Below, one piece after another: positions 34,358 through 64,000 of a stretch of DNA of 64,000 nt. Position numbers and translations under genes: made by a program. A model generated the notes under the pieces. That model had not been told where the DNA came from, did no database searches, and saw only the letters and a program-made list of their open reading frames with translations. The DNA is from Rhodococcus sp. Leaf278. Lineage in GTDB: Bacteria > Actinomycetota > Actinomycetes > Mycobacteriales > Mycobacteriaceae. Numbering within the stretch: position 1 is the stretch's first letter; each line of letters begins with the position of its first letter. The stretch spans positions 62,001 to 126,000 of the forward strand of contig NZ_LMRR01000041.1 in assembly GCF_001426085.1 (NCBI RefSeq), read 5' to 3'.

Positions 34358-36976
34358 TCAGGGGTGCAGCGGATCGATGTCGTGATCGACCGTCACTGCG
34401 TGGCCGAGAGAATCGGCCGCCGAGTCCACCGAGCCGTGCAGGCTGCCGTCGCTGAACAGACTCGAATCGCTCTCGGCCTGGCCGAACACGTCGGAGTCGA
34501 CGCTCGACCAGCCGGTGCCGGAAGAGGTTGCGCTGCTGTCGAAGGAGCTGGAGTGCTCGAACGATCCCGACGCTGCACCGTTCGCGGCCGAGGAAAGGCT
34601 GCCGCCTGCATTAGCCAGGCCCTCCGCACCGGATTCCAGACCGCCGGTGACACTGCCCGCTGCCTGGCCACCGATATCGGCAGCGGAATCAAACCCGCCG
34701 CCCACGGACCCCGCAGCGTCGACACCAGCATCCAAACCCCCGGTCACCGTCGAGGCGACTTCGCCGCCGAAAGAGCCGCCGGCCTCGAGCCCCCCTCCGA
34801 CGTTCGACGCGATCTCGCCGCCCACCGAGGTGCCGGCGTCGACCACTCCACCCGCAGCACCTTGGATGCCGCCGGCGACCGACCCTGCAGCACCGGCTGC
34901 ACCTTCGAGACCCGCGCCGGCCGATGCTGCCGCGTCCAGGCCGGTATCGACAGCACCGGTCGCGGTTCCCTGCAGACCTGCGCCGGCCGATGCTGCCGCG
35001 TCCAGTCCGGTATCGACGGCACCGGTCACGGTTCCCTGCAGACCTGCGCCAGCCGAAGCTGCGGCGTTGACGCTGCCGGCCACTCCGCCCGCAACTCCCC
35101 CGGCGATCCCGCCGCCCAGGCTGCCGAGACCGGCGAGTCCTCCGGTGAGTCCTGCGCCGGCGTCGGCCAGCCCCGAGAGACCTCCGGTGACGCCCGCGCC
35201 TGCATCGGCGACGGCTGCCAGCCCGCCGGTGACGTCTGCTCCCACATTTCCGACCGCAGCAAGTCCGCCTGTCACACCGTCGGCAGCGCCGCCGACACCG
35301 GCAAGTCCGCCCGTCACACCGCCACCGAGTCCACCGATACCGGCGAGACCACCGGTCACACCGCCACCGAGACCACCGATACCGGCAAGACCACCGGTGA
35401 CACCGCCACCCAGTCCACCGATACCGGCAAGACCACCGGAGAGGTCAGCGCCGACTCCGCCGACTCCACCCAGAGCGGCCTCGACGGTTCCCGTGAGATC
35501 GGCTCCTGCTGCCACCGCGGTATCGATCGCTCCGGTCAGTCCCGCGCTCAGGTCGGTTCCGGCACCGAGTACGGCTCCGAGGTCGAGTGCTGCACCGGTG
35601 TCGAGCACCGTCTCGAGAGCGGTGCCGAGCTGGGCTCCAGCCGCTCCGCCGACGCCGAATGCGGCTCCGAGGATGCCTTCGAGGTTTCCGGTGACTCCAC
35701 CTTCGATGCCGCCCATGACACCGCCTGCGAGGCCTCCGCCGATGCCTGCACCTGCGCCGATGACGCCGTCGACCGCGGTGTCGATGGCCGCCGTCAGGCT
35801 GCCGATCGCGCTGGTGTCCAGGTCGAGTGCCGTTCCGAGTGCGCCTCCGACGACAGCACCGATATTGCCTCCTGCGGCCAGCAGGCCGTCGACGTCGAGG
35901 TCTGCGAGCGCACCGGCGTCGAGGACGGCTCCGAGTGCGGATCCGATGGATCCGGCAATGGCACCGTCGGCGGCGAAGAGCCCGCCGAGGCTGCCGCCGA
36001 TGCCACCGGCGATGTCGCCGATCAGTGCGCCGCCGGCACCGACTGCGCCGTCGAGAGCAGCACCGACGTCGGTCGTGAGATCTGCACCGACGGTCCCGAG
36101 GCCCGCGAGTGCGCCGCCGATTCCGGCGGTCAGAGCGGCACCGAGGTCACCCGCGATGTCCAGTCCGGCTCCGGCACCGAGGGCGGCGTCGAAGACTCCA
36201 CCGAGCGCCGTGCCGAGCTCGGCTCCGACGGTTCCACCGACTCCGAAGATCGCGCCGAGCGCGCCGCCCAGTCCGCCCTGGATGTCGGCCAGTGCGCCGA
36301 GGTCGACGGCACCGGTCGCGCCGATAGCAGCGTCGAGTGCTGCCTGCAGCTGTGCGGCGATGTCGCCACTGATCTCGCCGCCGATGTCTGCACCTGCGCC
36401 GATCAGTCCGGTCAAGGCAGCGCCGAGACCGACGGTTCCGCCGAGCAGACCGTCGAGATCGAGATCCAGATTGCCTCCGAGTCCGCCGCCGATGCCTGCG
36501 CCCGCGCCGATCAGAGCGTCGAGGGCACCACCGAAGGCAGTGCCGAGCTCCAGACCGATCTGACCGCCGACGGCCAACGCTGCAGCGAGAGCAGCCTGCA
36601 GGGATGCCTCGATCTCACCCGTCACATCGATTCCGCCGGTCAAGCTGCCGCCTGCAGCGAGTCCGCCGCCGGCAACTGCGCCTGCAGCGAGTCCGAGTCC
36701 GGCAGACAATCCGCCGCCGAGGCTCGCCCCTCCGGCAAGTGCGCCCTCGAGGCCGGCCGATCCGCCTGCACCCAAGATGGCCGACAGCTGGCTGCCCGCT
36801 CCGGCGAACAGACCCGACTCGGCGACCAGCGGTGCTACGGCGACGATGTCTGCGTGGGTCACGTCGCCGAGGCCTGCGGCGGCCAACGTGGTCTCGGGGT
36901 TGGCGCAGTAGGCCGCCGCGGCCTGGTCGTCGCGCAGCAAGCCGAGAATGAAATCGAGTACGGCGTTGGTAGCCAT
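34358..36976 (-). CDS. iniB: IniB, Gly/Ala-rich repeat protein
   Basis: An 872-residue protein, first gene of the iniBAC operon. The N-terminal 50 residues (ATNAVLDFILGLLRDDQAA, and PETTLAAAGLGDVTHADI) form the small IniB N-terminal helical domain. The rest is a very repetitive Gly/Ala/Val/Leu sequence with blocks such as AGIGGLGGGVTGGL and DAAASAGAGLQGT. The last 70 residues are Ser-rich and acidic. It has no classical signal peptide. The ATG at 36976 has AAGGAGA upstream. Mycobacterial IniB is shorter; the size here comes from repeat expansion. Its role in the envelope is unknown. Confidence 0.85.
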   Translation of the reverse strand: MATNAVLDFILGLLRDDQAAAAYCANPETTLAAAGLGDVTHADIVAVAPLVAESGLFAGAGSQLSAILGAGGSAGLEGALAGGASLGGGLSAGLGLAAGAVAGGGLAAGGSLTGGIDVTGEIEASLQAALAAALAVGGQIGLELGTAFGGALDALIGAGAGIGGGLGGNLDLDLDGLLGGTVGLGAALTGLIGAGADIGGEISGDIAAQLQAALDAAIGATGAVDLGALADIQGGLGGALGAIFGVGGTVGAELGTALGGVFDAALGAGAGLDIAGDLGAALTAGIGGALAGLGTVGADLTTDVGAALDGAVGAGGALIGDIAGGIGGSLGGLFAADGAIAGSIGSALGAVLDAGALADLDVDGLLAAGGNIGAVVGGALGTALDLDTSAIGSLTAAIDTAVDGVIGAGAGIGGGLAGGVMGGIEGGVTGNLEGILGAAFGVGGAAGAQLGTALETVLDTGAALDLGAVLGAGTDLSAGLTGAIDTAVAAGADLTGTVEAALGGVGGVGADLSGGLAGIGGLGGGVTGGLAGIGGLGGGVTGGLAGIGGLGGGVTGGLAGVGGAADGVTGGLAAVGNVGADVTGGLAAVADAGAGVTGGLSGLADAGAGLTGGLAGLGSLGGGIAGGVAGGVAGSVNAAASAGAGLQGTVTGAVDTGLDAAASAGAGLQGTATGAVDTGLDAAASAGAGLEGAAGAAGSVAGGIQGAAGGVVDAGTSVGGEIASNVGGGLEAGGSFGGEVASTVTGGLDAGVDAAGSVGGGFDSAADIGGQAAGSVTGGLESGAEGLANAGGSLSSAANGAASGSFEHSSSFDSSATSSGTGWSSVDSDVFGQAESDSSLFSDGSLHGSVDSAADSLGHAVTVDHDIDPLHP
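35331..35456. repeat. Three 42-bp tandem repeats within iniB
   Basis: Three consecutive 42-bp units, each starting CCACCGATAC (35331, 35373, 35415), encode the 14-residue unit GGGVTGGLAGIGGL. The near-identity of the units points to recent duplication by slippage, so copy number may vary among strains. Confidence 0.85.
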
Positions 36977-37053
36977 CTGGGTCTCCTTGACGAGTGGTCG
37001 TTCGTGGTTGATCACAAAGCTATGCATCGGAGAGCCCCCGCCCAACGGGGCCG

Positions 37054-37118
37054 ATCCCCCTACTACCCCGGGGTCCGCCAGGGGGCTTTCGTTAGGGGAT
37101 CTGAGCGCTTTAGGGGAT
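37054..37118. promoter_or_regulatory. Divergent iniB / Hsp70-like promoter region with TTAGGGGAT boxes
   Basis: The 261-nt divergent region holds two direct copies of TTAGGGGAT (37092-37100 and 37110-37118), spaced exactly 18 bp apart. An inverted, slightly longer version ATCCCCCTA lies at 37054-37062. A regulator such as IniR, encoded downstream in the plus-strand operon, is the natural candidate to bind. Which start it serves is not determined. Confidence 0.4.
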
Positions 37119-37237
37119 TTCACTCGTTTCACGCTCTAACCTGCTGTGAGACGTAACGAACAACGGACGCGGTCCGACAGTGCGGGTGACGGCAGTACTA
37201 CTGACGGCTGAGGCGAGATGAAGGCGGCGACATCACT

Positions 37238-39043
37238 ATGAACGGCAAGAGTGCAGCCTGCGGAATGACCGGGACAGGGCTCGGCATACGTATCGGTTCG
37301 GTGACAGCGGCTGCTGCACTCGACACCGACCCCGTTACTTCCGTCGTCAAGCGTTCGGCACTCGATCTTCGCCCCGGCGCGGCTCCGAGCTTGGCCGAGC
37401 TGTGGGACGGATCGGGCCGCCATCTGATCAGCGGGTTCGCCGACCGAGTGGGCGACCCGGTGGAATTGATCGACGACGACGGCCGCAGTCACCGTGCCGA
37501 GGATCTGTACGCCACCGCCGCTCGCGCACTCGTGGCCGAGGTGTCCGCCGGAGCCGATTCCGCCCCCACGGTCGTCGTCGCCCACCCCACCCGCTGGACG
37601 GCGTACACGGCCGAGGTCCTCGGCGAGGCATTGGATCGCGCCGGCCTGGCCGACGCCACGCTGGTACCCGAGTCCGTTGCCACGATGCGCTGGCTCGAGG
37701 TGACTCGCGGACCACAGGCCGACGGCCTCGCCGTGATCTACGACCTGGGTGCCAGCGCCCTCGACGTGACCCTGATGCGGACCGGCACCGACGCAGGCGT
37801 CGTCGGCAGCGGCGTCCACTCGCAGGAATTCGGCGGCGCGCAGTTCGATCACGCGATCATGCAGTACGTCCTCGATACCGTCTCGGGAAGTCAATCGTTC
37901 GAGTTCGATCCGTTCGACCCCGACACCGTCGGTGCGCTGGTGGAACTGCGAGCACGGTGCGGCCAGGCCAAAGAACAACTCTCTTACGACACGTCCACCT
38001 CGCTCACCGTGGACCTGCCCGGTCTGCACACCGAGGTTCGCCTGGTGCGCTCCGAGATCGAGGAACTGGTACGCGCATCGCTGCTGGCGTCGGTCGGGGT
38101 CGTCCGTGACGCCGTGGCCGCCGCGGGGCTCGAGGTCACCGATATCGACCAGGTGGTGCTCGTCGGTGGCAGCTCGGCCATTCCCCTTGTTGCCGAACTC
38201 ATCTCGTCCGAACTGCGCGCCCCCGTGGTGGCCGGTCCGCGTCCGGAACTGACCGTTGCGATCGGAGCCGCGATACTCGGAAGCGACATCGCCGACGCCA
38301 CCGCCGCCGAAGATGCAGCCTCCCTGGCTGCGGTCCCGACCGCGTCCGTGGCTACCGCTGCCGCCGCCCCGATGCCTCGCCCCACCCCGAGACCGGCCCC
38401 GACGCCTACTGCGGTGGAATCCGACGCAGGGATGTCCGGCCGCAAGAAGGCCGGCCTCGTCGCCGGATCCGTTGTCGTCCTGGCTCTTCTCGCCGGCGGA
38501 GGCCTGTCGGTGGGTACCGCGTTGACCTCGGACAACACGGCACCGGCCGAGTCCAATGCCGACATCTCGAGCACCGAAACACCGGGAACCACCGCGGCTG
38601 TCGCGGACGCATCGACGACGACCACGACTACGGGCGAGAACGGCGCTGCTGCAGTCGGATCCGAGGGCGCTCCCACCACGGTCGTCAACGCCGACGGCAC
38701 CGTGACGCAGATCGATCCGGCCACCGGTGCCCCGGTTGCCGGTGCGCCCGCGGCGGGAGCACCCGCGCAGGCCCCTGCCGACAACGGCGCAGCAACCGTG
38801 CCGACCATCCCATCGGTCGCGGCTCCGACGGTGCCCAACTACCAACCACCGGCTGTGCAGGTGCCACAGGTTCCCAGCTACCAGCCACCTACGTACCAGG
38901 GCCCGACTCTCGGCGATGTCGGCCAAGGTGTGGGTCAAGGTCTCGGCGGCGTCGTGGGCGGAGTCGGTGACGGACTGGGCGGTGCGGTCGGTGGCGTCGG
39001 CGACGGTCTCGGCGGAGCCCTCGGCGGCCTGACCGGTCGATAA
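37238..39043 (+). CDS. Membrane-anchored Hsp70-like protein with outer repeat tail
   Basis: A 601-residue protein with an N-terminal actin/Hsp70-type ATPase fold of about 350 residues. Phosphate-1 is degenerate (LGIRIGSVT, where DnaK has GIDLGTTNS), while phosphate-2 (IYDLGASALDVTL) and the adenosine motif (VVLVGGSSAIPLV) are recognisable. There is no substrate-binding domain. One membrane helix (about 407-430) follows, then an extracytoplasmic Ala/Pro/Gly-rich tail ending in GGVVGGVGDGLGGAVGG-like repeats similar in style to IniB. It is divergent from iniB and stops 7 nt before iniR, so it is probably cotranscribed with the regulator. Confidence 0.8.
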   Translation: MNGKSAACGMTGTGLGIRIGSVTAAAALDTDPVTSVVKRSALDLRPGAAPSLAELWDGSGRHLISGFADRVGDPVELIDDDGRSHRAEDLYATAARALVAEVSAGADSAPTVVVAHPTRWTAYTAEVLGEALDRAGLADATLVPESVATMRWLEVTRGPQADGLAVIYDLGASALDVTLMRTGTDAGVVGSGVHSQEFGGAQFDHAIMQYVLDTVSGSQSFEFDPFDPDTVGALVELRARCGQAKEQLSYDTSTSLTVDLPGLHTEVRLVRSEIEELVRASLLASVGVVRDAVAAAGLEVTDIDQVVLVGGSSAIPLVAELISSELRAPVVAGPRPELTVAIGAAILGSDIADATAAEDAASLAAVPTASVATAAAAPMPRPTPRPAPTPTAVESDAGMSGRKKAGLVAGSVVVLALLAGGGLSVGTALTSDNTAPAESNADISSTETPGTTAAVADASTTTTTTGENGAAAVGSEGAPTTVVNADGTVTQIDPATGAPVAGAPAAGAPAQAPADNGAATVPTIPSVAAPTVPNYQPPAVQVPQVPSYQPPTYQGPTLGDVGQGVGQGLGGVVGGVGDGLGGAVGGVGDGLGGALGGLTGR

Positions 39044-39050
39044 GCCGACC

Positions 39051-41558
39051 GTGACCAGCATCCGGCCCTCCCTCGTCGGCGTCGAACGCGCCGATCGTTT
39101 CGTTCGTGATGCCCTCGCCACCACGGGGTTTCATGTTGTTGTCGGAGCGAACGGGTCCGGTCGCTCCGCAGTTCTCGACGCGATCGGCGCGGCGGTGGAT
39201 CCGCACCCGGGCAGCATTGCCGACGCCCCGTCCGGCTCGACGGTTCTCGTCGACGACGCCCATCTGCTGTCGGAACAACGGTTGGACGAAATTGCCGCGG
39301 CAGCAACGCGGTCGGACATCACGCTGATCGTGGCCACGGCTCCGCGCTTGTTCGATTCTCGGATCGAGAAGTTGATCGCGTCCGCCGGTTCCGGTCGACT
39401 GACTCTGGTTCCGTTGGACAAGACGTCGATCGCCGCACGGGCTGCCGCCACTGCACGGCCCATCTCGGCGGCACTGGCCACTGCCATTGCGAAGTCCACC
39501 GGGGGAATCCTCTCTGCCGTCGACGCCGCCCTTGCCGCGCTATCCGCAGAACTCGCCGACCCTTCACCCCTGCGAGCGGTGACCGAAGCCGTTGCGGCAC
39601 AGCATCGTCGGATGCTGCTCGACACCTCCGACGACACTCGGGCGCTGTTGCTCGCAGCTCGATTCGGCATAGCACCGGATCCCACGACGGCCGCGCAACT
39701 GATCGCGCGCACGAACGAAGTCGAATCTGTCGTCGATCTCGCCTGCAGCTCCGGCCTGCTCGACTCCACCGGCGCGTTGATTCCGGCCGCCGAGGTTCCC
39801 TTGACCGAGCTGATCGGTGATCGGCGCTGCCGCGTCCTGCTCCAGTCCGTCACCGACGTCGCATCCCGATCCCGCCTGCTCGACGCCACCGCCGCGCGTG
39901 CGCTGGCGCAGCGAGGCGTCGTCCATGTCGGTTTGGCCGATTTTCTTGTACAGCAAGCAGATTGGGCACCGGTCGAGGCAGCCGGCGCGCTGTACGATGC
40001 AGCTGTCGACGCCGGTTTCGATCCGATGGTGCTCGCCGCCCGTCGGTCCGAGGTCGCGGCCGCCACCGGCGACCTGGACGAGGCGGGGCGCTATGCCGAT
40101 GCGGTACTCGACAGCGCCGCCGTCTGTGATTCCGCGGATCTGCGGACCGCGGTGCGGGTCTCGGCCGCGATTGCCGCGCAGCGCGGAATGCTCTCCCGCA
40201 GTGCGCAACTGTTCGGATGGCTCGGCGAGAATCGACTCGGGCCCGACGGGGTGTGGGCCGCTCTGTCCGCTGCTGGAGCCGGCGATCGTGATGCTGCAGA
40301 CCGGTCGATGACCGCAGTGTCAGCACTTGCGCCGACGTCGAGCACTGCATCCGGCACCTTGCTGGTGGCCGGCGTCCTCGGGTCGATCGACTCCCGCAGC
40401 GCAGCCGGCTCGAGCGGTGCCGCGCACTCGCTGATGCGCGCACTGTCGTTGACCGGCAACGTATCCGACCGTTCGTGTGCCACCGACACCGCCGCGGCCG
40501 TCGCAGCCCTGCACGCCGTGCACTGCGGCGACCTCGCTCGCGTAGATTCCATTCTGGCCCGAGCCCTGCCCGAACAGCGTCCCGGATCCGAGGCGCACAC
40601 TCGACTGATCCTCCTCGGGGCATGGGCGTCGATGCTGCGGGGCGATGCCGCCGAGGCGAGTGTTGCGCTCGATGGACTGCGGATACCGTTGTCGCACATG
40701 CGCAATCAGCTCTTCCTGCACGCGATCCGGGTGGGCCTGGCTCGCAGGTCGGGTGACGCAGGGTCGTTGATTACCGCATGGACCGGCGCCCAGAACGTCA
40801 TCGCCGAATACTCGGCAGATCTGTTCGCGCTGCTCCCTCTGGGCGAATTGCTCTTGGCTGCAACCCGACTCGGCCAGGTCGACCGCGTCGAACACCTCGT
40901 CGCGCATGCCGCCGATCTGCTCGCAGCGCTCGGAGATCCGCCAGTCTGGGCGTCTGCGCTGAACTGGTACCAGGTCCAAGCGGCCATCGTGGCCCAGACT
41001 CCCGACGCGCTGGTGCCGCACGCCAAGGCCCTCGCGGCTGCCGCTCCCACCCACCCGTACAGCGCCGCCCTCGCCGCCGCCGGCCGCGCCTGGCTCGGGG
41101 TGTTGCAGGGCAGGCCCGATCCGGCCGATGTGGAGAACTCGGCACGGACGCTGACCGCGTTCGGGCTGCCCTGGGATGGAGCCAGACTGGCGAGCGAGGC
41201 CGCGCTGACCGTCTCCGATACCGCGACCGCCACCGCACTGCTGCACATCGCCAGGTCGCTGCGCCAATCCGGGTCGCAGCCGCCCACCGCGCACCGCCGC
41301 GAGAGTTCCGGAACCACGCCCACCCCGACCGGATCGTTGAGCGAGCGCGAGGCCGAGGTCGCCGAGCTGCTCGTACTCGGAGTCACGTACCGCGAGGTGG
41401 GTAGCCGCCTCTACATCTCCCCGAAGACCGTCGAACATCATGTGGCTCGCATACGGCGCAGGCTCGGGGCCGAGTCTCGCTCGGAGCTCATCTCGATGCT
41501 GCGCGCCATGGGATACGGAGGCTCCACCAGCACATCGAGCAGCAATGTAACTGTGTGA
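39051..41558 (+). CDS. iniR: LuxR-type regulator IniR of the ini locus
   Basis: An 835-residue cytoplasmic regulator, matching the length and position of M. tuberculosis Rv0339c (IniR). It has a large-LuxR layout: an N-terminal ATPase-like domain with a P-loop-like GANGSGRS (Arg instead of Lys) and VLVDDAHLL, a long helical TPR-like middle, and a C-terminal LuxR HTH (LSEREAEVAELLVLGVTYRE, TVEHHVARIRRRLGAESRSEL). The start is GTG at 39051. The regulator is known in mycobacteria to activate iniBAC. It lies 7 nt after the Hsp70-like gene. Confidence 0.82.
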   Translation: MTSIRPSLVGVERADRFVRDALATTGFHVVVGANGSGRSAVLDAIGAAVDPHPGSIADAPSGSTVLVDDAHLLSEQRLDEIAAAATRSDITLIVATAPRLFDSRIEKLIASAGSGRLTLVPLDKTSIAARAAATARPISAALATAIAKSTGGILSAVDAALAALSAELADPSPLRAVTEAVAAQHRRMLLDTSDDTRALLLAARFGIAPDPTTAAQLIARTNEVESVVDLACSSGLLDSTGALIPAAEVPLTELIGDRRCRVLLQSVTDVASRSRLLDATAARALAQRGVVHVGLADFLVQQADWAPVEAAGALYDAAVDAGFDPMVLAARRSEVAAATGDLDEAGRYADAVLDSAAVCDSADLRTAVRVSAAIAAQRGMLSRSAQLFGWLGENRLGPDGVWAALSAAGAGDRDAADRSMTAVSALAPTSSTASGTLLVAGVLGSIDSRSAAGSSGAAHSLMRALSLTGNVSDRSCATDTAAAVAALHAVHCGDLARVDSILARALPEQRPGSEAHTRLILLGAWASMLRGDAAEASVALDGLRIPLSHMRNQLFLHAIRVGLARRSGDAGSLITAWTGAQNVIAEYSADLFALLPLGELLLAATRLGQVDRVEHLVAHAADLLAALGDPPVWASALNWYQVQAAIVAQTPDALVPHAKALAAAAPTHPYSAALAAAGRAWLGVLQGRPDPADVENSARTLTAFGLPWDGARLASEAALTVSDTATATALLHIARSLRQSGSQPPTAHRRESSGTTPTPTGSLSEREAEVAELLVLGVTYREVGSRLYISPKTVEHHVARIRRRLGAESRSELISMLRAMGYGGSTSTSSSNVTV

Positions 41559-41617: not shown

Positions 41618-42748
41618 ATGACCGAGCAGCCCGGCAGTGTGAGGATCGGCACGCCGGACGTCGGCCTCTATCTGGACGACGAACGTGCCGTGGCTGCGGT
41701 GTCGCATCCCATTGCGCCCGGCCCGTCACTGCACCTGGCGTCGCTGCACTCGACCGTGCTCAACACCCATCCCGACGGCACCGTCTCGCTCGGTGACACA
41801 CCCGGCGAGAAGTCGGAGGCGTACACCCACTTCCTCGACTCTCTCGCCGACGGCGTCGGCGTCACCGGCAGCAAGGGGACCGTCTTTCCCGCCGAGCAGC
41901 TGACGTCGATGGCGCTGTTGTGCCTGCTCACCGAGGTCGCGTCGTCGATCGATCTGCAACCAGGCGACCTCGCCGCGGCCGCCACCTACCCGGCCCGCTG
42001 GACGGCCGAGCAGGTCTTCGCATTGCGTTCGGCGATGAATGCGCACGGTCTCGCGCACGTATCGCTGGTGGCCGAAGCCGAGGCGCTCGCTGCGTGGAAC
42101 GCGTCGGTGCGGGCGACCCTTCAGAGCAAAGACTCGGCCGTCGCCGCGGCGCGTGGTGCTGCGATTCTGGCGTCTGAATTCCCCGTCGAAGCGGTCACCG
42201 AGCAAATAGCGGTACTGACCCCCACCCGTTCCGACCGTCGCCCGCTGTTCGCGGCGGCGGCGTTCGCCTCTGCGTTGATCGTCGGCGCGTCCCTGATCGC
42301 GCTGCAACTGGGTACCTCTTCCGACACGACGGTGCCCACCATCGGCAACGCGCAGCTGATTCCGCCGACAACGTCCTCCGGGACCGGTGCCGGCGGCCCG
42401 ATCCAGTTCCCCACCGTCGTCGTCGAACCGGCCGCCGAGATCGCGCCGGTCCAACCTCTTCCGCTGGAAACGACCGAAGAATCGACCCCGGCCGAGACCC
42501 CCGAGACCTCCGAGAACCCACGACGCAACGCGGACCCGACCGAGATCGACACCCGTCCCGCCGTAGAGACACCCGACATCCGCGACCGCGAGGACCCGCG
42601 TGAGACCGTCGATCCGGTCGACCCCGAACCAGTGGTCCCGGCCGACGAAGACACCGAGGACACCGGCGAGACGACCGACCCGGACACGACCGACCCGCAG
42701 TCCGACACCGAGCAGGCACGCGACGCAGGGACAGAGGGAACTCCATGA
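41618..42748 (+). CDS. Truncated Hsp70-like membrane protein
   Basis: A 376-residue protein that keeps only the N-terminal part of the Hsp70-like ATPase fold (about residues 1-170, with PDVGLYLDDERAVAAVS and AAATYPARWTAEQVFALRSA). The phosphate-2 and adenosine motifs are absent, so ATP hydrolysis is unlikely. It then has one membrane helix (about 208-231) and a 145-residue acidic Pro/Thr/Glu/Asp-rich outer tail. The 3' end overlaps the next Hsp70-like gene by 4 nt (ATGA), so the two are coupled and could form a complex. A 13-bp palindrome ATCGGTAACCGAT lies upstream at 41586-41598. Confidence 0.7.
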   Translation: MTEQPGSVRIGTPDVGLYLDDERAVAAVSHPIAPGPSLHLASLHSTVLNTHPDGTVSLGDTPGEKSEAYTHFLDSLADGVGVTGSKGTVFPAEQLTSMALLCLLTEVASSIDLQPGDLAAAATYPARWTAEQVFALRSAMNAHGLAHVSLVAEAEALAAWNASVRATLQSKDSAVAAARGAAILASEFPVEAVTEQIAVLTPTRSDRRPLFAAAAFASALIVGASLIALQLGTSSDTTVPTIGNAQLIPPTTSSGTGAGGPIQFPTVVVEPAAEIAPVQPLPLETTEESTPAETPETSENPRRNADPTEIDTRPAVETPDIRDREDPRETVDPVDPEPVVPADEDTEDTGETTDPDTTDPQSDTEQARDAGTEGTP

Positions 42749-44385
42749 GCGGTGCGGGCCATCTCGGAATCACCGTCGGTAACACCCGGTCGGTGGCAGT
42801 CCACCGCGTCCGCACCGACGACGAACCGACGGTCGTCGTAGTACCGACGACCCTGAGATTCGACGACGACGGCCGAGCTCATCTCGGCGAACCCGCCGAC
42901 ACAGCGCCCTTCACCCGGTTCGTGGACCTGGTCGGTCAGCAGGAGGACCTCGAACCCGACGCCGCCGCGTACCGCGCCGAGGATCTGATGGCGAACGCGG
43001 CCAACTGCCTGGTCACCATGATGTCCTCGGCAACCGAGTCGGCCGACGCACCCGTCACGACCATGACGTACCCGACGCGATGGCCGCGCGAGAGCGTTGC
43101 ACTGCTGCGCGATGCCCTCGATCACGCCGGCCTGACCGCAGTCGCCCTGGTGCCCGACGCAAAAGCCGCCAGCACCTTCGCGCAGCGCCACCCCGGCACG
43201 GCCGCCACGGTGATCGACATCGGCGCTACCGGCACCGACATCTCGACGTATCCCGGCGGCGGAACGGTTCGCACCACCGCCGTCAGCGGAGACGTCTTCA
43301 CCGATGCGCTGTTCGATCACGTGGTGACCGATCGAGACCACATCGATCTGTCCGACGCCGCAGTCCTGGCCGCTCTCGCCGGCGTCGTCGCGTCCTGCGA
43401 GGCAGCCAAACACGCACTCAGCACGGAAGAGAACGCCACCATCTCCGTCGATCTGCCGGGGCTGTCGCAGACCACGACCGTGACGCGATCGGAGTTCGCC
43501 GACCTGGTCGCGCCGTCGGTACGCACGCTCGACGTGCCGCAGACCGGCACCGTGGTGCTCACCGGCGGCAGCGCCGAACTGGAGTCGGTGGCCGCCGGGA
43601 TTGCCGAACGGACTTCGGGTGATCTAGTGGTCGAGCCACTGGCAGCACCCCGAGGCGCACTGCTGCTCGCCGAGGTCGACGATGTCGACGGCAACTCCCT
43701 GGTCACCGGCGCCGCGCCGATCGTCACCCGTAACGACGGCGCCGATTCGCTCGATACCGACGCCATTCCTGTTGTGCCACAAGAGAAGTCCCTTGCCTTC
43801 TCCGAGGCCATCCCAGCGGTGGCTCCGATGTTCGAGCCCTCGGAGTTTCGGTCCCATCCGGTCGAACCGGCCGAGGAGAACACGTCGAACACCGGTGCCG
43901 CACCGGCCGTGGCCCCCGTGGTCGCGTCGACGGATGCGACGAAGGAACGCAGCGAACGCTCGCGCACCATCACCACGATCATTGCCGGTGCCGCGGCGGG
44001 CGTGGTGATCGTGCTGGCGATCGCCGCGATCAGTGGCGTGTTCAGCAATTCGCCCGCTCCGACGCCCCCGGCCGTCACGGATGCAGGCTCGCCGGTCGTC
44101 ACCTCGACCCGCACGCCGCCGACCACAACCACCACTCCCGCTGCGGCCGTCGTCGCGCCGGAGGTGGTCGACGAACCGACGTACGAGCCGTACATCCCGC
44201 CCCAACCCGCGCCGCTGCCTGCGCCGCCACCCGCCCCGATCCCGACGCCCCCGCCCGTGGTCACCACCACCGTCCCGGTGCCGACGACGACCCCGGTGAC
44301 GACCACCCCGGCCGCGACGACCACAACGCCACCTACTACTACGTCTGCAACAACACCGACATCTTCCGACACTGCTACCCCCTGA
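42745..44385 (+). CDS. Membrane-anchored Hsp70-like protein with Pro/Thr-rich outer tail
   Basis: A 546-residue protein with a degenerate Hsp70 ATPase fold: phosphate-1 GITVGNTRSVAVH, phosphate-2 VIDIGATGTDIST and adenosine VVLTGGSAELESV. There is no substrate-binding domain. The membrane helix (about 408-433, IIAGAAAGVVIVLAIAAISG) is followed by an outer tail of about 110 residues rich in Pro and Thr (PTPPPVVTTTVPVPTT style). It is translationally coupled to the truncated paralogue upstream. Like its neighbours it is probably an inner-membrane protein with its ATPase fold inside and its tail in the periplasm. Confidence 0.8.
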   Translation: MSGAGHLGITVGNTRSVAVHRVRTDDEPTVVVVPTTLRFDDDGRAHLGEPADTAPFTRFVDLVGQQEDLEPDAAAYRAEDLMANAANCLVTMMSSATESADAPVTTMTYPTRWPRESVALLRDALDHAGLTAVALVPDAKAASTFAQRHPGTAATVIDIGATGTDISTYPGGGTVRTTAVSGDVFTDALFDHVVTDRDHIDLSDAAVLAALAGVVASCEAAKHALSTEENATISVDLPGLSQTTTVTRSEFADLVAPSVRTLDVPQTGTVVLTGGSAELESVAAGIAERTSGDLVVEPLAAPRGALLLAEVDDVDGNSLVTGAAPIVTRNDGADSLDTDAIPVVPQEKSLAFSEAIPAVAPMFEPSEFRSHPVEPAEENTSNTGAAPAVAPVVASTDATKERSERSRTITTIIAGAAAGVVIVLAIAAISGVFSNSPAPTPPAVTDAGSPVVTSTRTPPTTTTTPAAAVVAPEVVDEPTYEPYIPPQPAPLPAPPPAPIPTPPPVVTTTVPVPTTTPVTTTPAATTTTPPTTTSATTPTSSDTATP

Positions 44386-44460: not shown

Positions 44461-45759
44461 ATGCGTAACACCGGGGCTCTGCGTACTGCAGTGCTGTGCT
44501 CGACGGCTTTCGTTCTGTTCGCTTCGTTCTCCGGGACAGCGGCCGCCGAGCCCGTTGTCCAATCTCCCGCCGATCGGCTTCCCGCAGAGCTCGTCGAGGC
44601 TGTGCAGCGCGATCTGAAGATCTCTCCGCAGGAGTATCTCGATCGGGCCGCTCGTGCGCAGGAATTGTCCGCCTACGCATCGGACTTCCGTGCCAGCCGC
44701 CCCGCTGATTTCGCCGGCGCATGGATCGGACCCGACGGCAACGCCGTCGTCGCAGTCACCTCCCCTGCTGCAGCACAGGCAGTGGCCAAGGACGGATACG
44801 CCACAGCTCAGTCGCCGGTGTCGGCGGACGGGCTCGAGAAATCTCTGGCCGATCTCAACGGATGGATCGCCGGCCTCCCCCGCGAGATCTCCGAGCAGAT
44901 CAACGGCACGGCGATCGACTTCATCGACAACCAGGTGGTCATCGACCTGGTGAACAGTCCGATCGGTAGCGCACTCAACCTGCCGACGTTGCTGGCCAAC
45001 ATCAAGGTCATCCTCTCCCCCGGTGGAAACAAGCCGGTCGACCCGGCTCCCATGGGTGGCGACACCTACGTCACCAGCACCGGGCCCATCGCCGACGCCC
45101 CGACCACCGACATCAGCGTCTGCTCGTTCGGGTTCAACGCCGTCGACTCCTCCGGCGACGCCGTCAATTTGACTGCCGGACATTGCAATCCGAACAAGGC
45201 CACCGGAGCCGGCGGCGCACCGGTCTACCTTCCCGATCCGTCGGACATCAAGCGCAGCACGCAGATCGGCTCGTTCGATCGGTCGAGCCTGGGCGCGCAG
45301 GACGGCCTCGACTGGTCGGTGATCGACCTGAACGACAGCGGTATTTCGTCCGGCCTCGACCGTCCCACCGTCCGCGGAGCCAACGGCAGCACCGTCACGA
45401 TCACCGGAACCGCAGCACCCGTGATCGGAGCGCCGGTCTGCAAGTCGGGTCAGTCCTCGTCGTTCACGTGTGGCGTTGTTGCCGCCGACCGCGTCGAGAC
45501 ACAGCTCTACATGGAGGACGGCACCTCCCGCACGGTCCGTGGATTCGCCAGCACCGCGTGCACTCTGGCCGGCGACAGCGGCGGTGCCATCGTGACCGGA
45601 ACACTCGCGCTCGGCATCACCAGCGGATCCAACAGTGGTGGCGCACCCGACTGCAACGAGGCAAATCTGGCATTGGCCCAGTACGGGGGCACTGCGAGTC
45701 TCGGTATTCCCATCGATCAGGTCATCGGCGCAACCGGAGCGACCCTACGAACCGAATGA
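44461..45759 (+). CDS. Secreted S1-family serine protease (alpha-lytic type)
   Basis: A 432-residue exported protease. The signal peptide cleaves near AAA-EP (about residue 29), followed by a helical pro-region of about 180 residues. The trypsin-like domain carries H241 in LTAGHC, D284 in DGLDWSVIDL and S373 in GDSGG, so the triad is intact. Disulphide-forming Cys flank the sites. It is the first of two tandem proteases, 75 nt after the Hsp70-like gene. Substrates are unknown; processing of envelope or secreted proteins is likely. Confidence 0.88.
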   Translation: MRNTGALRTAVLCSTAFVLFASFSGTAAAEPVVQSPADRLPAELVEAVQRDLKISPQEYLDRAARAQELSAYASDFRASRPADFAGAWIGPDGNAVVAVTSPAAAQAVAKDGYATAQSPVSADGLEKSLADLNGWIAGLPREISEQINGTAIDFIDNQVVIDLVNSPIGSALNLPTLLANIKVILSPGGNKPVDPAPMGGDTYVTSTGPIADAPTTDISVCSFGFNAVDSSGDAVNLTAGHCNPNKATGAGGAPVYLPDPSDIKRSTQIGSFDRSSLGAQDGLDWSVIDLNDSGISSGLDRPTVRGANGSTVTITGTAAPVIGAPVCKSGQSSSFTCGVVAADRVETQLYMEDGTSRTVRGFASTACTLAGDSGGAIVTGTLALGITSGSNSGGAPDCNEANLALAQYGGTASLGIPIDQVIGATGATLRTE

Positions 45760-45837
45760 GCCGGTAGGTCGACGCCTGCGCACCCCCTATAGTCAGTGAA
45801 CGGCATCACATCGTTGATGCCTCGGGGGAGGGGTTTC

Positions 45838-46956
45838 ATGCGTCGCCGTGGGCTGGGGTTGTCGATTGCCGTGTCATGCGTGATAGCGATGGCGGTGTTC
45901 GCGCCCGTTGCCACTGCCGCGCCCGCAGCGGGTACGGATCCGGTGCTGCCGCCCGAGCTGGTCGACGCCGTCGCCCGCGATCTCGGGCTCGATCCGCACC
46001 AGTTTCTCGAACGAGCCGACGCGGCAAGGCGTTTGGCGGAGTTCACTGCCGCTGTCGGTTCCGAGGCGATCACGGGTGCCTGGCTCGATACGGACGGTCG
46101 GCCCGTCGTCGCAGTGGCGGACGGCCACACCGATACCGAGGTGGCCGACGCCGCGTCGGCCAAGGGGTTCGCAACGGTTGCCTCCGGGATAGAGATTCCA
46201 CAGGCGGTGCACGACGCCGTCGACCCGCTGGTGGAGCTACTCCCCTTCGATGTCGCGCCCACGGCCGGTCCCATTCGGGCCAGTTCGTATCTCGGCGGAG
46301 ACAGCTTCCTTGCGGGCACTCCGGCCGGCCTCGGTCTGCGTTGCTCGCTCGGATTCAACGCCGTCGATCCCGCCCGCGGACCGGTCAACATCACTGCGGG
46401 CCACTGCGATCCGGCCGCCACCGGTTCCGCAGGGTCGACCGGCGCTTACCCGATGTACGGGAGTCTCGTCGGGTCGAAGTTCGGCTCTTTCTACCGAACC
46501 AGCCAGTCGCCCAACGATTACGCCCTGATCGAGATCGACGACGCCAACGTCGGAGAGTTCGAGAGCAATGCGGTGCGAGTGCCCGGCTCGGGACCGCTGC
46601 ACGTCACCGGAACGGTGGATCCCATCGTGGGTGCACCGGTCTGCAAGTCCGGTTCCAGGACCGGATTCAGTTGCGGCACAATCTTGTCCACGGGCCGGAA
46701 CGTCGCCATGGGTGAGGCCGTCATGGACCGAAGCTTCTCCACGTCCATCTGCGCTCTCCGCGGCGACAGCGGTGGCCCGATCGTCAGCGGCACCCTCGCC
46801 GTCGGCATCGCCAGCGCGTCGAATGTGGGCGATCAACCGTCCTGCGAAATCGCGATGGTGTTCAGCATGCTGCAGGGCCAACGACCCGAACTGTTCGCCA
46901 CCCCCATCAACGACGTGTTGGCCGAGAATCCCGGACTGACGGTCCGTACGTCGTAG
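45838..46956 (+). CDS. Secreted S1-family serine protease, second of a tandem pair
   Basis: A 372-residue paralogue of the preceding protease, with a signal peptide (cleavage near ATA-AP), a pro-region and the triad H189 (ITAGHC), D227 (NDYALIEID) and S311 (GDSGG). The pro-region is shorter than in the first copy. The ATG at 45838 has a strong GGGGGAGGGG ribosome-binding site, which decides against the upstream in-frame start at 45796. The pair arose by duplication and has since diverged. A bidirectional terminator follows. Confidence 0.88.
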   Translation: MRRRGLGLSIAVSCVIAMAVFAPVATAAPAAGTDPVLPPELVDAVARDLGLDPHQFLERADAARRLAEFTAAVGSEAITGAWLDTDGRPVVAVADGHTDTEVADAASAKGFATVASGIEIPQAVHDAVDPLVELLPFDVAPTAGPIRASSYLGGDSFLAGTPAGLGLRCSLGFNAVDPARGPVNITAGHCDPAATGSAGSTGAYPMYGSLVGSKFGSFYRTSQSPNDYALIEIDDANVGEFESNAVRVPGSGPLHVTGTVDPIVGAPVCKSGSRTGFSCGTILSTGRNVAMGEAVMDRSFSTSICALRGDSGGPIVSGTLAVGIASASNVGDQPSCEIAMVFSMLQGQRPELFATPINDVLAENPGLTVRTS

Positions 46957-60777: not shown

Positions 60778-62916
60778 TCAGGGGGCGGGCGGAGCGATCG
60801 GCGGGAACCCGGGCAGAGTGAAGTCCGGGAACGCCGGGAACAGCGGCGGCTGCTGCTGCGTCGTTGTCGGTGGAACGGACTCGACTGGTGGCGGCGGAGC
60901 GGGCTCGGCCGTGGTCGTCGTCGGCTCCGGAGTGACTGGCTCCTGAGTGACCGGCTCCTGGTAGACCTCGGTCTCGGGCGGCACGGTGGTCGGTTCGACG
61001 GTGGTCACCGGCGCGGGAGGCGGCAACACCGGAGCAGGTATCACCGACGTGGGCGGAACGGTCGTCGCGGCCGGGGCCTGAGTCTGAGTGCGACTCACCG
61101 ACGTGTCGACCACTTGCGGCGTGTTCTGGTGGGTGAGCATGAAACCGGACACGCCGACTACTGCGGCAAGGCCGAGGGCGAGCACACCACCGGTGCGAAG
61201 CTTGCGTCGAGCACGGGTTCGATCGTCCTCACCGTCGTCGTCGTCGTAGTCGGCGTCGAGCCAGTAGATGTTCTTCAGCTGGAAAGGAACCGGCTTACCG
61301 TCGTCGTCGTCGGTCGTCTCGGTATCGACTTGTTTCTCGGGAACCTGCGTAACACTCTGTGCCGCGACAGTTTCCGCTACGTCCGAGTCGTGGACTGCGC
61401 CTTCGACGGTGCCATCGCCGGCATCCGTGCTCAATGCAACGACCTCCCCGTCGACCTGCGCCCCCTGCACGTGGTCGTCGAGAACATCATCCGTCACGGC
61501 CGGAGGCGACTCCGGCTCGACAGCAAGAGAATGGGAAGAATCGACAACGGAATCGGTGAATCTCAAGGATTCGAACCCGCCGGCCGCGTTCGTGGCGTCG
61601 ACCGACGTGGTGTCCACCGGAACCTCGACCGACGTGGTGTCCACCGGAACCTCGACCGACGTGGTGTCCACCGGAGCCTCGGCCGATGTGCCGGCGATCG
61701 GAGCCGCCGCGACCCAGGGACGGGCGGGGACCGGACGCGTTGTGGAAGGCACCGGAGCCGACGCCGACGGTGCAGCGTGCAGCGACTCGGTGCGGGCCGG
61801 AATCGGCCGCACGGGGGCGGCCGTAGGTAGAGGTGGTTTCGGGGGCCGAGGGTTCGCCACACGCGACTGCGGCGGACGCGGCGGCGCAGGTCGGTGCTGA
61901 GGGGTCGGCGCAGATGTCGGTGTCGAGTCCACGCGAGTTACGGGGTCGACGAGGGCTGCCGGTTGCGGTGCCACCCGCCGGTTCGCGTCGGGATTGCGTC
62001 CCGGAGCGGTTCGAGAGCGCGAGTGCGGTCGCGCGGTCAGAGCAGCGCCACGCGCTGCGACGGTCTCCGGCTCGGTCGGCACGATCGACGGCAGTTCCAG
62101 CAGCGGTCCGACGCGATTCTGCACGATCGGCATCCGTGCGCCTCCGCCGATCAGCACAACGGCATCGATGGGCACGTTCGCCCCGATCAACACGTCGCGC
62201 GCGAACTCGACGGCCTCCTCGAGCAGATCGGTGATCAGCAGCTCGAAATTCTCGCGCGAGAGCAGAATCATCCCGCTCGCATCGGGCAGGCACACCGCAT
62301 CCTGAGTGGACAGGCGTTCCTTGGCGATTCGGCAGCGCTTCTCGAACAGTGCGATGTCCGGGTCCGTCATCTTCTTGCCGAGACGCTCGAGTTGGTTGTT
62401 GCGGACATAGGCGTCGAGCAGGTCGCCGCTGTATGCACCCGACCGCTGCGAGGCGGTGACGGTCCGCTGTACCAGGTCGACGACGCTGACCGTCAGTCCG
62501 GAACTACCGAGATCGAACAACGCGACCGATCTGTAGTCGCGGGCCTCGCCGGTGGCTGCCAGGTACTCGACGACGGCTTCCACCTCGTGCACCAGGTGGT
62601 AGTTGTGCAGATGGGCACCGGCGAGCGCGGCATGCAGCGCATCTGCCTGCCGAGGGTCGCGGTAGGCGACACCGGTGGCGAGTTCGGGCTCGGTTTCCAC
62701 GGCCGCACCGATCGATTCGGCGGCCAGATGCGGGAGATCGCCGCCCACGCTGTCGATGAGCTCGTTACGGAAGAACAGTGGCCGCTCGATGTCGGTGACC
62801 AGGCCGGACGCGTCGCCGACAGGAGCCTGGAACTGCTCGGCTCGGGGCTGCGCCGTACGCACAGCCCGGGTCCCCATGGACACCCCAAGCAGCACAGTCA
62901 CGGTTGTCGGCCTCAC
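60778..62916 (-). CDS. Membrane-anchored Hsp70-like protein, Pro-rich
   Basis: A 712-residue protein with an N-terminal Hsp70-like ATPase fold: LLGVSMGTRAVR near the start, phosphate-2 ALFDLGSSGLTVSVV and adenosine VVLIGGGARMPIV. A long Pro/Ser/Thr-rich cytoplasmic linker of about 290 residues follows, with tandem repeats at 61601-61681. One membrane helix (GGVLALGLAAVVGVSGFML) and a Pro/Thr-rich outer tail end the protein. The start is GTG 62916; an open frame continues far upstream but overlaps the next gene in another frame. It converges on aldR. Confidence 0.75.
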   Translation of the reverse strand: MRPTTVTVLLGVSMGTRAVRTAQPRAEQFQAPVGDASGLVTDIERPLFFRNELIDSVGGDLPHLAAESIGAAVETEPELATGVAYRDPRQADALHAALAGAHLHNYHLVHEVEAVVEYLAATGEARDYRSVALFDLGSSGLTVSVVDLVQRTVTASQRSGAYSGDLLDAYVRNNQLERLGKKMTDPDIALFEKRCRIAKERLSTQDAVCLPDASGMILLSRENFELLITDLLEEAVEFARDVLIGANVPIDAVVLIGGGARMPIVQNRVGPLLELPSIVPTEPETVAARGAALTARPHSRSRTAPGRNPDANRRVAPQPAALVDPVTRVDSTPTSAPTPQHRPAPPRPPQSRVANPRPPKPPLPTAAPVRPIPARTESLHAAPSASAPVPSTTRPVPARPWVAAAPIAGTSAEAPVDTTSVEVPVDTTSVEVPVDTTSVDATNAAGGFESLRFTDSVVDSSHSLAVEPESPPAVTDDVLDDHVQGAQVDGEVVALSTDAGDGTVEGAVHDSDVAETVAAQSVTQVPEKQVDTETTDDDDGKPVPFQLKNIYWLDADYDDDDGEDDRTRARRKLRTGGVLALGLAAVVGVSGFMLTHQNTPQVVDTSVSRTQTQAPAATTVPPTSVIPAPVLPPPAPVTTVEPTTVPPETEVYQEPVTQEPVTPEPTTTTAEPAPPPPVESVPPTTTQQQPPLFPAFPDFTLPGFPPIAPPAP
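61601..61681. repeat. Three 27-bp tandem repeats
   Basis: Three units beginning ACCGACGTGG (61601, 61628, 61655) lie in the linker-coding part of the Hsp70-like gene and encode repeats of EVPVDTTSV. One base differs in the third unit. They are protein repeats, with no spacers, and so not a CRISPR. Confidence 0.9.
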
Positions 62917-63074
62917 TTCGTTCGGCAGTAGCGGCGGACGCGGTACACCTCGTCCAGAGCGCCAGGCTACCGCCTCGACCGAAACTACGGGGCGCGCGCC
63001 CCAGAAGCAGCCGAGGCGGTATGCCGCAGAAGCGGTCGCGCTGCCCGTTCCAGCATCCCGCCCGGCCCTGCGGT

Positions 63075-64000
63075 CTATTCCGGCAGTTCCGTATCGACGA
63101 CAGGTTGGTACAGCTGGCCGTCGTAGGTGAAGGCTCGCTCGTACAGATCGGCGTCCGACAGGCGAACCGGCCCCTGGACGGGCAGCTCGGCCGGCCCAGT
63201 AGCTGCATCCTCGGCCGGCCCGGCAGCGTCGGCGAGGGCGGCAGCGAACCCCGCATCGACGGGAATCTGCTCGTCGATGAGCGGAGTGGGTGCCGGAGTG
63301 TTTCCGCGAGTGAACACCAGACCTGCCACCGCGACGATCACCAGGGCGACCGCCGCCAGAACCGACGCGTCGCGCACCGACCATCTCGCCGTGCGCCGCG
63401 TCGGCTGGGTGACGACACCGGGTTCGAGAACGTCGGGTTCGAGAACGTCGGGCTCCGCAACCGCGGGCGCGACCACCGCGGGCGCGATTGTCGAGGAGTC
63501 GGCAGCCGTGTCGAACACGGTCGAGGTGATCGCCAGTTCTTCGGTGGCGAGCTGATCGACGGTCAGGCCGTCGACCGTCCACTCGTCGACCGCACCGAAA
63601 TCCGTGGTCCCGGGCGCATCGAGAAGCTCGGACGCGTCGTCGGGCACCGTGACAAGTCCCACATCGGAATCCAGAACACCGGCGTCCAGAACATCGGCGT
63701 CCAGAACATCCGTGCCGACAGCGGCCTCGAGAACGGGCCTCTCGTCGAGTGCTGCCCCCTTGGCGATGGCCATCGCCGGCGCGTCGGGCACATAGACCGG
63801 GACACTCCACTTGTCCTCGATGATGGTGCGCACCGCGGGGATGCCTGCACCGCCGCCGATGAGCAGTACCGCGTCGGGAGCCTGCTTGGATGCCCAGTCC
63901 AGGGCGTCGGTTACGAGCGGGGTGATCTCGCGCTCGAATTCCTTGCGGCTGAGCAACATCGGGCCGCGGTTCGGTGCCCGGACACCCGCCGACGAACTGA
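63075..64000 (-). CDS. Membrane-anchored Hsp70-like protein (partial)
   Basis: The 5' end is beyond the window. The visible 308 residues hold the last part of an Hsp70-like ATPase fold (SRKEFEREITPLVTDAL, adenosine motif VLLIGGGAGIPAV and GAALDERPV). An acidic linker with VLDADVLDAGVLD-type repeats follows, then a membrane helix (VLAAVALVIVAVAGLVF) and an outer domain of about 75 residues ending TYDGQLYQPVVDTELPE. It is upstream of and in the same direction as the other Hsp70-like gene. It belongs to the same paralogous family as the genes at 37-44 kb. Confidence 0.75.
   Translation of the reverse strand, partial: SSSAGVRAPNRGPMLLSRKEFEREITPLVTDALDWASKQAPDAVLLIGGGAGIPAVRTIIEDKWSVPVYVPDAPAMAIAKGAALDERPVLEAAVGTDVLDADVLDAGVLDSDVGLVTVPDDASELLDAPGTTDFGAVDEWTVDGLTVDQLATEELAITSTVFDTAADSSTIAPAVVAPAVAEPDVLEPDVLEPGVVTQPTRRTARWSVRDASVLAAVALVIVAVAGLVFTRGNTPAPTPLIDEQIPVDAGFAAALADAAGPAEDAATGPAELPVQGPVRLSDADLYERAFTYDGQLYQPVVDTELPE

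Follow-up and report, generated by a model that had tools for sequence, protein, structure and literature searches.

Adjacent Hsp70-like membrane proteins with a degenerate active site in Rhodococcus sp. Leaf278 as candidate envelope sensors or anchors

Two adjacent minus-strand genes, here called B and A, lie at the right-hand end of a 64,000-nucleotide stretch of DNA from Rhodococcus sp. Leaf278 (positions 62001-126000 of contig NZ_LMRR01000041.1, in a genome of 5.7 Mb), which is referred to below as the window. Both encode predicted Hsp70-like proteins with a transmembrane (TM) helix (Table 1), as a first-pass annotation of the same DNA had proposed. The start codon of B (GTG) was picked by eye, and the frames of 1010-1073 aa that overlie this gene correspond to its own frame running out of frame through A. 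Gene A runs past the window end; in full it occupies L011:3076-4521 (63075-64520 in window numbering), with its N-terminal half beyond the window. The annotation had placed the pair 17 kb from a group at 37-44 kb with the same domain order. The measured spacing was 16.4 kb, and the order is shared by two members of that group, Hsp1 and Hsp3, whereas the third, Hsp2, lacks the second half of the nucleotide-binding domain (NBD). The annotation was right to count at least five paralogues within 27 kb, and the genome as a whole holds still more. It overlooked that catalytic residues are lost and that a substrate-binding domain (SBD) is lacking, as well as the position of the first group at iniB/iniR.

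Table 1. Features of genes B and A and of the iniR-linked group, in window numbering.
Feature	Position	Strand	Basis or remark
Gene B, transmembrane Hsp70-like protein, 707 aa	60778..62901	minus	orthologues in 12/12 named Rhodococcus loci
B NBD, residues 1-292	62026..62901	minus	AlphaFold2 model, Hsp70 fold
B linker, residues 293-540, Pro-rich then acidic, mostly poorly conserved	61282..62025	minus	block identities
B 27-bp tandem repeat, VDTTSVEVP units, within linker	61598..61690	minus	not kept in orthologues
B juxtamembrane motif QLKNIYWLDADYDDDDGEDD and following residues	61213..61281	minus	0.93 identity among orthologues
B single TM helix (predicted), residues 571-589	61135..61191	minus	hydropathy
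B outer tail (predicted), Pro/Thr-rich, 118 aa, 29% Pro	60781..61134	minus	block identities 0.58-0.86
B C-terminal tip PPLFPAFPDFTLPGFPPIAPPAP, conserved, PxxPDFTLP-type	60781..60849	minus	orthologue alignment
Gene A, transmembrane Hsp70-like protein, 481 aa	63075..64000	minus	runs past window end
A NBD, C-terminal part, end approximate	63729..64000	minus	alignment, profile match
A TM helix (predicted), residues 385-403	63312..63368	minus	hydropathy
A C-terminal element DLYE..F.Y.GELYQP, semi-conserved	63096..63152	minus	present in most orthologues
IniB-like Gly/Ala-rich protein	34358..37132	minus	family match, IniB N-terminal domain (77.5 bits; cut-off 40)
Hsp1 of iniR cluster, NBD, TM, Gly-rich tail	37238..39043	plus	Pfam, alignment, tree
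IniR-like ATPase/LuxR regulator	39051..41558	plus	family match below cut-off, NF038181 (455 bits; equivalog cut-off 750)
Hsp2, half-NBD membrane protein	41618..42748	plus	alignment; no Pfam match
Hsp3 of iniR cluster	42745..44385	plus	Pfam, alignment

The fold of the B NBD was modelled with AlphaFold2 from a 23-row alignment (predicted local distance difference test score, pLDDT, 85.9; predicted template-modelling score, pTM, 0.84). The top Foldseek match among those listed was DnaK (2v7y, E 6.3e-17). In VIA the same structure (Z 25.9, 282 residues, root-mean-square deviation 3.2), Ssz1 (4gni_A, Z 25.1, 269 residues, root-mean-square deviation 2.5) and a chain of the ribosome-associated complex, 5mb9_B (Z 25.6), which we take to be Ssz1, were tied. 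All 50 Foldseek and all 50 VIA matches listed were of Hsp70 type, with no other fold among them, and a sequence search of the PDB gave 2e-7, to Ssb1, as its best match. On the predicted model, the Hsp70 kinship of the B NBD is firm.

Actin and Hsp70 share a superfamily, which would fit a scaffold in which the NBD polymerizes or assembles in the manner of MreB, FtsA or PilM, with the tail as its anchor in the wall. In line with this idea, the Pfam family MreB_Mbl matched Hsp1 above its cut-off (5.5e-08) and, below it, Hsp3 (0.0037) and the in-window piece of A (0.0011). B gave no MreB match, however, Hsp1 and Hsp3 both match HSP70 better, and the structural matches listed for B were uniformly of Hsp70 type, so that we consider a polymerizing scaffold very unlikely.

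The Pfam HSP70 match of B (9.5e-15) covers profile positions 142-373 of 599 and thus ends ahead of the SBD. The rest of the protein matched nothing at E <=0.1, and no SBD match was found past approximately residue 292 in the Pfam scan. The in-window piece of A alone scored below the HSP70 cut-off, and whole A gave about 324-326 bits against a profile of seven NBDs of its own genome, A being one of the seven.

To read the active site, 90 rows of the family (13 of them orthologues of A and 13 of B) were aligned to the DnaK of the same genome, together with a redundancy-reduced set of 38 representatives (<60% identity). At the phosphate-1 position corresponding to DnaK D8, aspartate was absent throughout: serine occurred in 75 of the 90 rows, followed by Ala (5), Thr (4), Arg (3), Gly (2, with the Gly of row L065, whose N-terminus is mis-delimited, being meaningless) and Lys (1). 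The position of K70 held lysine in only two rows (26 gaps), that of T199 was glycine in 87/90, and that of D201 was aspartate in 5/90. E171 was Glu in 55 and Asp in 35, and both the phosphate-2 aspartate (D194) and the adenosine GG motif were retained in 89/90, the exception in each case being the truncated Hsp2. The counts in the representatives were (D8 Asp 0, K70 Lys 0, D194 Asp 37, T199 Gly 36, D201 Asp 4, GG 37). B itself, with a phosphate-1 loop GVSMGT, a phosphate-2 motif DLGSSGLT and an adenosine motif GGG, carries S, no K, E, D, G and T at D8, K70, E171, D194, T199 and D201, and lacks the canonical DnaK/HscA catalytic set. From the alignment, nucleotide binding looks kept across the family and hydrolysis doubtful; given that the phosphate-1 Asp is replaced by Ser and the K70, T199 and D201 equivalents are missing, hydrolysis would be very slow or absent.

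These results bear on whether A and B are membrane-tethered chaperones, folding or holding proteins at the membrane with a tail or a partner taking over from the SBD. In favour are the Hsp70 fold of the NBD, two R. opacus records that label the gene 'Hsp70 family protein' and 'Chaperone protein hscA', and a report describing the atypical Hsp70 Ssz1 as still serving in a chaperone complex (PMC7083937). Against this, the HSP70 matches stop before the SBD, the linker is variable and of low complexity, and most catalytic residues are lost, which makes a chaperone role quite unlikely. In these genomes, a large number of the genes labelled 'Hsp70 family protein' may encode something other than an active chaperone.

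A hydrophobic helix follows the NBD in 84 of 88 rows and is flanked by more Lys/Arg on its N side in 79 of these 84, which suggests an NBD inside and a tail outside the cell. In B, six basic residues lie on the inner N side and one outside. A and B share the architecture of the iniR-linked clade, i.e., NBD, linker, single TM helix with a basic N side and low-complexity tail. Fold, architecture, conservation and phylogeny are all well supported by prediction.

Block identities among 13 B sequences were high in the NBD (0.68-0.97), in the acidic-aromatic juxtamembrane motif (short form YWLDADYDDDDGEDD), in the helix (0.82-0.86) and at the tip (0.79-0.81). They dropped to 0.20-0.65 in the linker from residue 301 and were 0.58-0.83 in the remainder of the tail. 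The pattern P[GAQ][LFIV]P...P was present at the tip of all 21 B/P1-type rows (14 B-type and 7 P1-type, P1 being a paralogue described below). Further, three rows from g2, a group that we take as Mycobacterium-like, carry IPGLP or VPGLP close to their end, and a B/P1-type tip was seen by eye in R. opacus L147, whose tail ends in VIPGLPQIQLPPLRLPPLPRLPGL. The gene of L147 lies on the mobilizable plasmid pRoPD630_2 of strain PD630, near genes for glutamate-cysteine ligase and the gas-vesicle protein GvpO.

With regard to composition, the long Pro-rich linkers that had been announced for both proteins hold for B, with its tail of 29% Pro, and less so for A (13%). The announced internal tandem repeats are real, comprising one 27-bp array (3.4 copies) and four 15-bp arrays (60922-60960, 63419-63452, 63449-63485 and 63661-63710). 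We nevertheless consider them unlikely to be functional, because the 27-bp array, the longest, falls in the least conserved linker blocks of B (0.20-0.25 among orthologues). The array at 60922 lies in a B-tail block of 0.58, and those of A in blocks of 0.21-0.55. Expansion had been taken to suggest diversified partners or outer ligands. The alignments are compatible with this, since the B/P1 tip differs from the DLYE..F.Y.GELYQP end of A and each is conserved within its subfamily; the repeats lend it no support.

Searching the whole genome with Pfam HSP70 and an alignment of seven of its own NBDs, together with the window itself, gave 12 family members besides DnaK, which is a lower bound, plus a relative of the ESX-4 Rv3446c type. 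The 12 are Hsp1-Hsp3 at iniR, A, B, P1 (about 20 kb beyond the window), P2 and P3 (contig C44), P4 (C2), P5 (C1), an NBD-only protein on C13 and a degenerate one on C18. The count takes in the very degenerate L030 (46 bits) and Hsp2, which was recognized by eye and alignment and matched by no family model; Hsp3 came from the window scan. P2 (L013:5274-6935, with a TM helix) and P3 (10162-11130, NBD only) lie 3 kb apart as another membrane/soluble pair, which might form heteromers; a similar pair (L080) exists in a congener. P4 (L014:5792-7504) adjoins genes read by eye as groES/groEL and tsaD.

The phylogeny of the ATPase domains, proposed in the first-pass annotation as a check, was run on 50 hand-chosen NBDs. 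In this careful maximum-likelihood tree (which omits Hsp2, Hsp3 and L030), 29 rows formed one clade apart from DnaK (support 100/99), Hsp1 included. Together with the 12 genome members, this supports a single, expanded family. The 29 rows belong to the family of the window itself, here f1 and presumed to be GTDB Mycobacteriaceae (the mycolic-acid group), to named Rhodococcus or to R. opacus L147. Within them, a 16-row subclade (100/99) unites A, B, P1-P5, L027 and relatives, away from Hsp1 and the g2 rows. A sits on a long stem of its own and B beside P1, by which a recent tandem duplication giving rise to A and B was rejected. In a quick tree, which left out L034, L036, L037, L039, L040, L045, L065, L076 and L101, Hsp3 fell in an unsupported fork, so that its placement is unsure.

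The Asp-less clade branches from within a set of actinobacterial Hsp70-like proteins, most of which retain the phosphate-1 Asp. Among 20 loci from outside the family, hand-picked from the best matches listed rather than drawn at random, 18 retain this residue (three of them grouping with DnaK), L144 has His and L139 shows no clear motif; at least one helix follows the NBD in 13. As the outside loci mostly keep the Asp and 13/20 have a helix, the residue was likely lost in an ancestor that was already a membrane-anchored Hsp70-like protein.

To assess the spread, 31 genomes were sampled, one for each of 30 genera of f1. Matches at E <=1e-22, i.e., above the DnaK level, occurred in 22/31 genomes and 21/30 genera, with none in nine genera, and matches of >=140 bits in 12/31 genomes. 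Tallies of 240/249 and 371/394 genomes were rejected as measures of spread: the usual single match there (approximately 1e-17 to 1e-22) is at the level of the genome's own DnaK (71 bits) and was taken to be DnaK, and at >=140 bits only 7/249 and 6/394 genomes remain, all in f1. With regard to a restriction to mycolic-acid-bearing genera, which the first-pass annotation had proposed as a check, rows of the Asp-less clade in our samples came only from f1 or named Rhodococcus records, and NBD-plus-helix proteins that keep the Asp occur outside f1. Named copies came from Rhodococcus and from Nocardia farcinica (42.7% identity over 99% of the NBD). An origin from a phage or plasmid was also rejected: two matches to phage records are HscA, and the copies on large Rhodococcus/Nocardia replicons of the plasmid collection do not explain this locus.

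With the B NBD as a query, 12 named loci were found; in ten of them, from Rhodococcus/Rhodococcoides, the NBD is 86-96% identical, and in the remaining two 65-66%. All 12 keep the order 57598 gene - ald - aldR - B - A - acyl-CoA dehydrogenase - hydrolase. The alaT gene was seen in ten, the DNA of the other two ending before its position, and an acyl carrier protein (ACP) gene between A and the dehydrogenase was seen in seven, the 100-aa floor for frames exceeding the 85-aa ACP. In one distant congener aldR-B is kept, and the next 17 kb gave no match to either A or the ACP cluster. The interval between A and P1 (L011:4772-14909, L012:241-4617) contains ACP, acyl-CoA dehydrogenase, alpha/beta hydrolase and family-2 glycosyltransferase genes.

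This conservation also addresses the possibility that A and B are decaying or dispensable products of expansion with no shared present role. The catalytic decay, the additional loss of the phosphate-1 Gly in four A orthologues (GVAVES) and the failure to find A within 17 kb of B in that congener would all agree with it. The open frames, and the strong conservation of both genes and their position in 12/12 named loci, argue the other way and render this decidedly improbable.

With regard to the iniR-linked branch, a published study describes IniR as the regulator of the cell-wall-stress operon iniBAC, responding to wall drugs and trehalose, and reports a dnaK-like gene beside iniR in M. smegmatis (PMC5760070). 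Among the g2 genomes, L098 and L099 have an Hsp70-like gene adjoining iniR, and L098 and L100 have alaT nearby. In Hsp2 the first part of the NBD, the TM helix and the tail are retained, and the stretch from phosphate-2 through the adenosine motif is absent. Congener L101 has an orthologue shortened in the same way (48-50% identity), so that this form is maintained. The tail end of Hsp1 has Gly-rich repeats resembling the IniB-like protein (blastp 8e-10 without composition correction), a likeness that may be compositional. Beside Hsp3, 44461-45759 (weak Trypsin_2 and Rv1815-type matches, below cut-off) and 45796-46956 were read as secreted trypsin-like serine proteases.

This branch is also related to an ESX-4 component. 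Compared with the iniR-group NBD in hhalign, the N-terminus of Rv3446c-type proteins (20 loci plus L016; the frames of L016 and L121 were chosen by a fallback rule) gave 96% and a score of 75, against maxima of 20 in 100 column shuffles and 21 in reversed controls. L016 (G000:C2:151929-152534) is the Rv3446c-type relative of this genome; its N-terminal NBD is homologous to that of the iniR-group Hsp70s and has decayed strongly. An earlier study lists rv3446c as one of the genes gained in the ancestral ESX-4 cluster (PMC4791881). The family might therefore act as a secretion accessory, helping a type VII or another export machine, as would be consistent with this homology, with the common order of NBD-like part, TM helix and outer part, and with the presence of TIGR03931 in 28/31 f1 genomes (E <=1e-8; 26 above the curated cut-off). 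However, the A/B-type profile alone gave a weak link (28.8%, score 36, shuffle maximum 23), TIGR03931 matched neither the A piece nor B at E <=0.1, and ESX families matched none of ten neighbouring proteins scanned (two of which matched nothing), so that we regard such an accessory role of the family as unlikely.

In our best reading, A and B are Hsp70-like proteins that span the membrane, have no SBD and carry a degenerate catalytic site, and they would serve as a sensor or anchor rather than as chaperones. More specifically, a nucleotide-binding, probably non-hydrolysing Hsp70 head would be coupled through the membrane to a wall-docked stalk, a model to which we assign a probability of roughly 0.5. 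The cytosolic NBD would still bind nucleotide and act as a nucleotide-gated switch or a protein-binding platform. A disordered linker, in B together with the acidic-aromatic juxtamembrane motif, would join it to the single helix, N side in, and the stalk, Pro-rich in B, would carry the conserved end into the cell wall or mycomembrane. The state of the wall at the tip could thus be coupled to cytosolic partners at the NBD, with tails specialized between paralogues. Topology, nucleotide binding, lack of hydrolysis, outer docking and a part in signalling or anchoring are all deduced here from predictions. An envelope-stress context is supported by the other family branch at iniR/iniB.

Several observations weigh against this model. 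Membrane coupling is not universal, as the paralogues P3 and L027 are NBD-only and have no helix. The tail of A differs from that of B and is poorer in proline, and the neighbours of A and B are ald/aldR and the ACP/acyl-CoA dehydrogenase cluster, with no iniR/iniB directly beside them. The loose tip pattern also matches 11 of 63 other rows with a helix, and because the outer tail of B is fairly conserved throughout, the contrast between its tip and the remaining tail is clear chiefly in the two orthologues farthest from B. With a pLDDT of 39, the full-length B model is too poor to show any interplay of the parts. Finally, the 90 aligned rows are not independent given their 13 A and 13 B orthologues, the active site was read from an alignment in which B has about 20% structural identity to DnaK, and another set of residues could support hydrolysis.

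A broader and rather doubtful proposal extends the sensor or anchor model to the whole family. Bacteria of f1 would have turned an ATP-hydrolysing, membrane-anchored Hsp70-like protein into a diverse set of wall-spanning pseudo-Hsp70s, in which the NBD reads nucleotide or partner state in the cytosol and the conserved tip docks in the outer envelope; the iniR/iniB locus and ESX-4 Rv3446c would be specialized offshoots of what might be a common inside-to-outside coupling device of the mycolata. To our knowledge, it is still unsettled by what means mycolic-acid bacteria sense their outer envelope from within the cytosol, and the route by which iniBAC signals wall-drug stress is only partly known. 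With an Hsp70-type head presumably inside and a conserved tail end outside, this family, which is found at the iniR locus and is, through the iniR group, homologous to an ESX-4 component, is a concrete, testable candidate for such sensing. Already on record are the 'Hsp70 family protein' annotation and the dnaK-like gene by iniR in M. smegmatis; beyond the latter remark, no literature on the family was recognized in open-licence full texts, and no paper was found there on the catalytic-residue loss, the conserved outer tail end or the kinship of the iniR group with Rv3446c.

Compared with known systems, the family shares with DnaK/Hsp70 (PF00012) the NBD fold, the phosphate-2 Asp and the adenosine GG motif, and differs in its single TM helix and outer tail, in that no SBD was found, and in having lost most catalytic residues, among them the phosphate-1 Asp. 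Hsp1 of the iniR-linked group falls in the same clade (100/99) and has the same architecture as A and B, which differ from it in their tail ends, in their locus and in a shorter spacing from phosphate-1 to E171 (96 in B and 71 in A against 125 in Hsp1); the M. smegmatis dnaK-like gene is likened to them via Hsp1. The Rv3446c family (TIGR03931) resembles A and B in its degenerate NBD-like N-terminus, TM helix and exported part, with the homology established for the iniR group, whereas its NBD is more decayed and its outer part fits the TIGR03931 model. Other actinobacterial membrane-anchored Hsp70-like proteins (L141, L142, L130, L128 and others) have an NBD, a TM helix and, in several cases, a Pro/Thr/Ser-rich tail; unlike A and B, they keep the phosphate-1 Asp and lie outside the clade. 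Yeast Ssz1, with a similar structural Z, is compared for its way of working, no membership being claimed: it is eukaryotic and ribosome-associated, has an SBD-beta and pairs with Zuo1, and passages of PMC7083937 offer it as a precedent for an Hsp70 that binds ATP without hydrolysing it.

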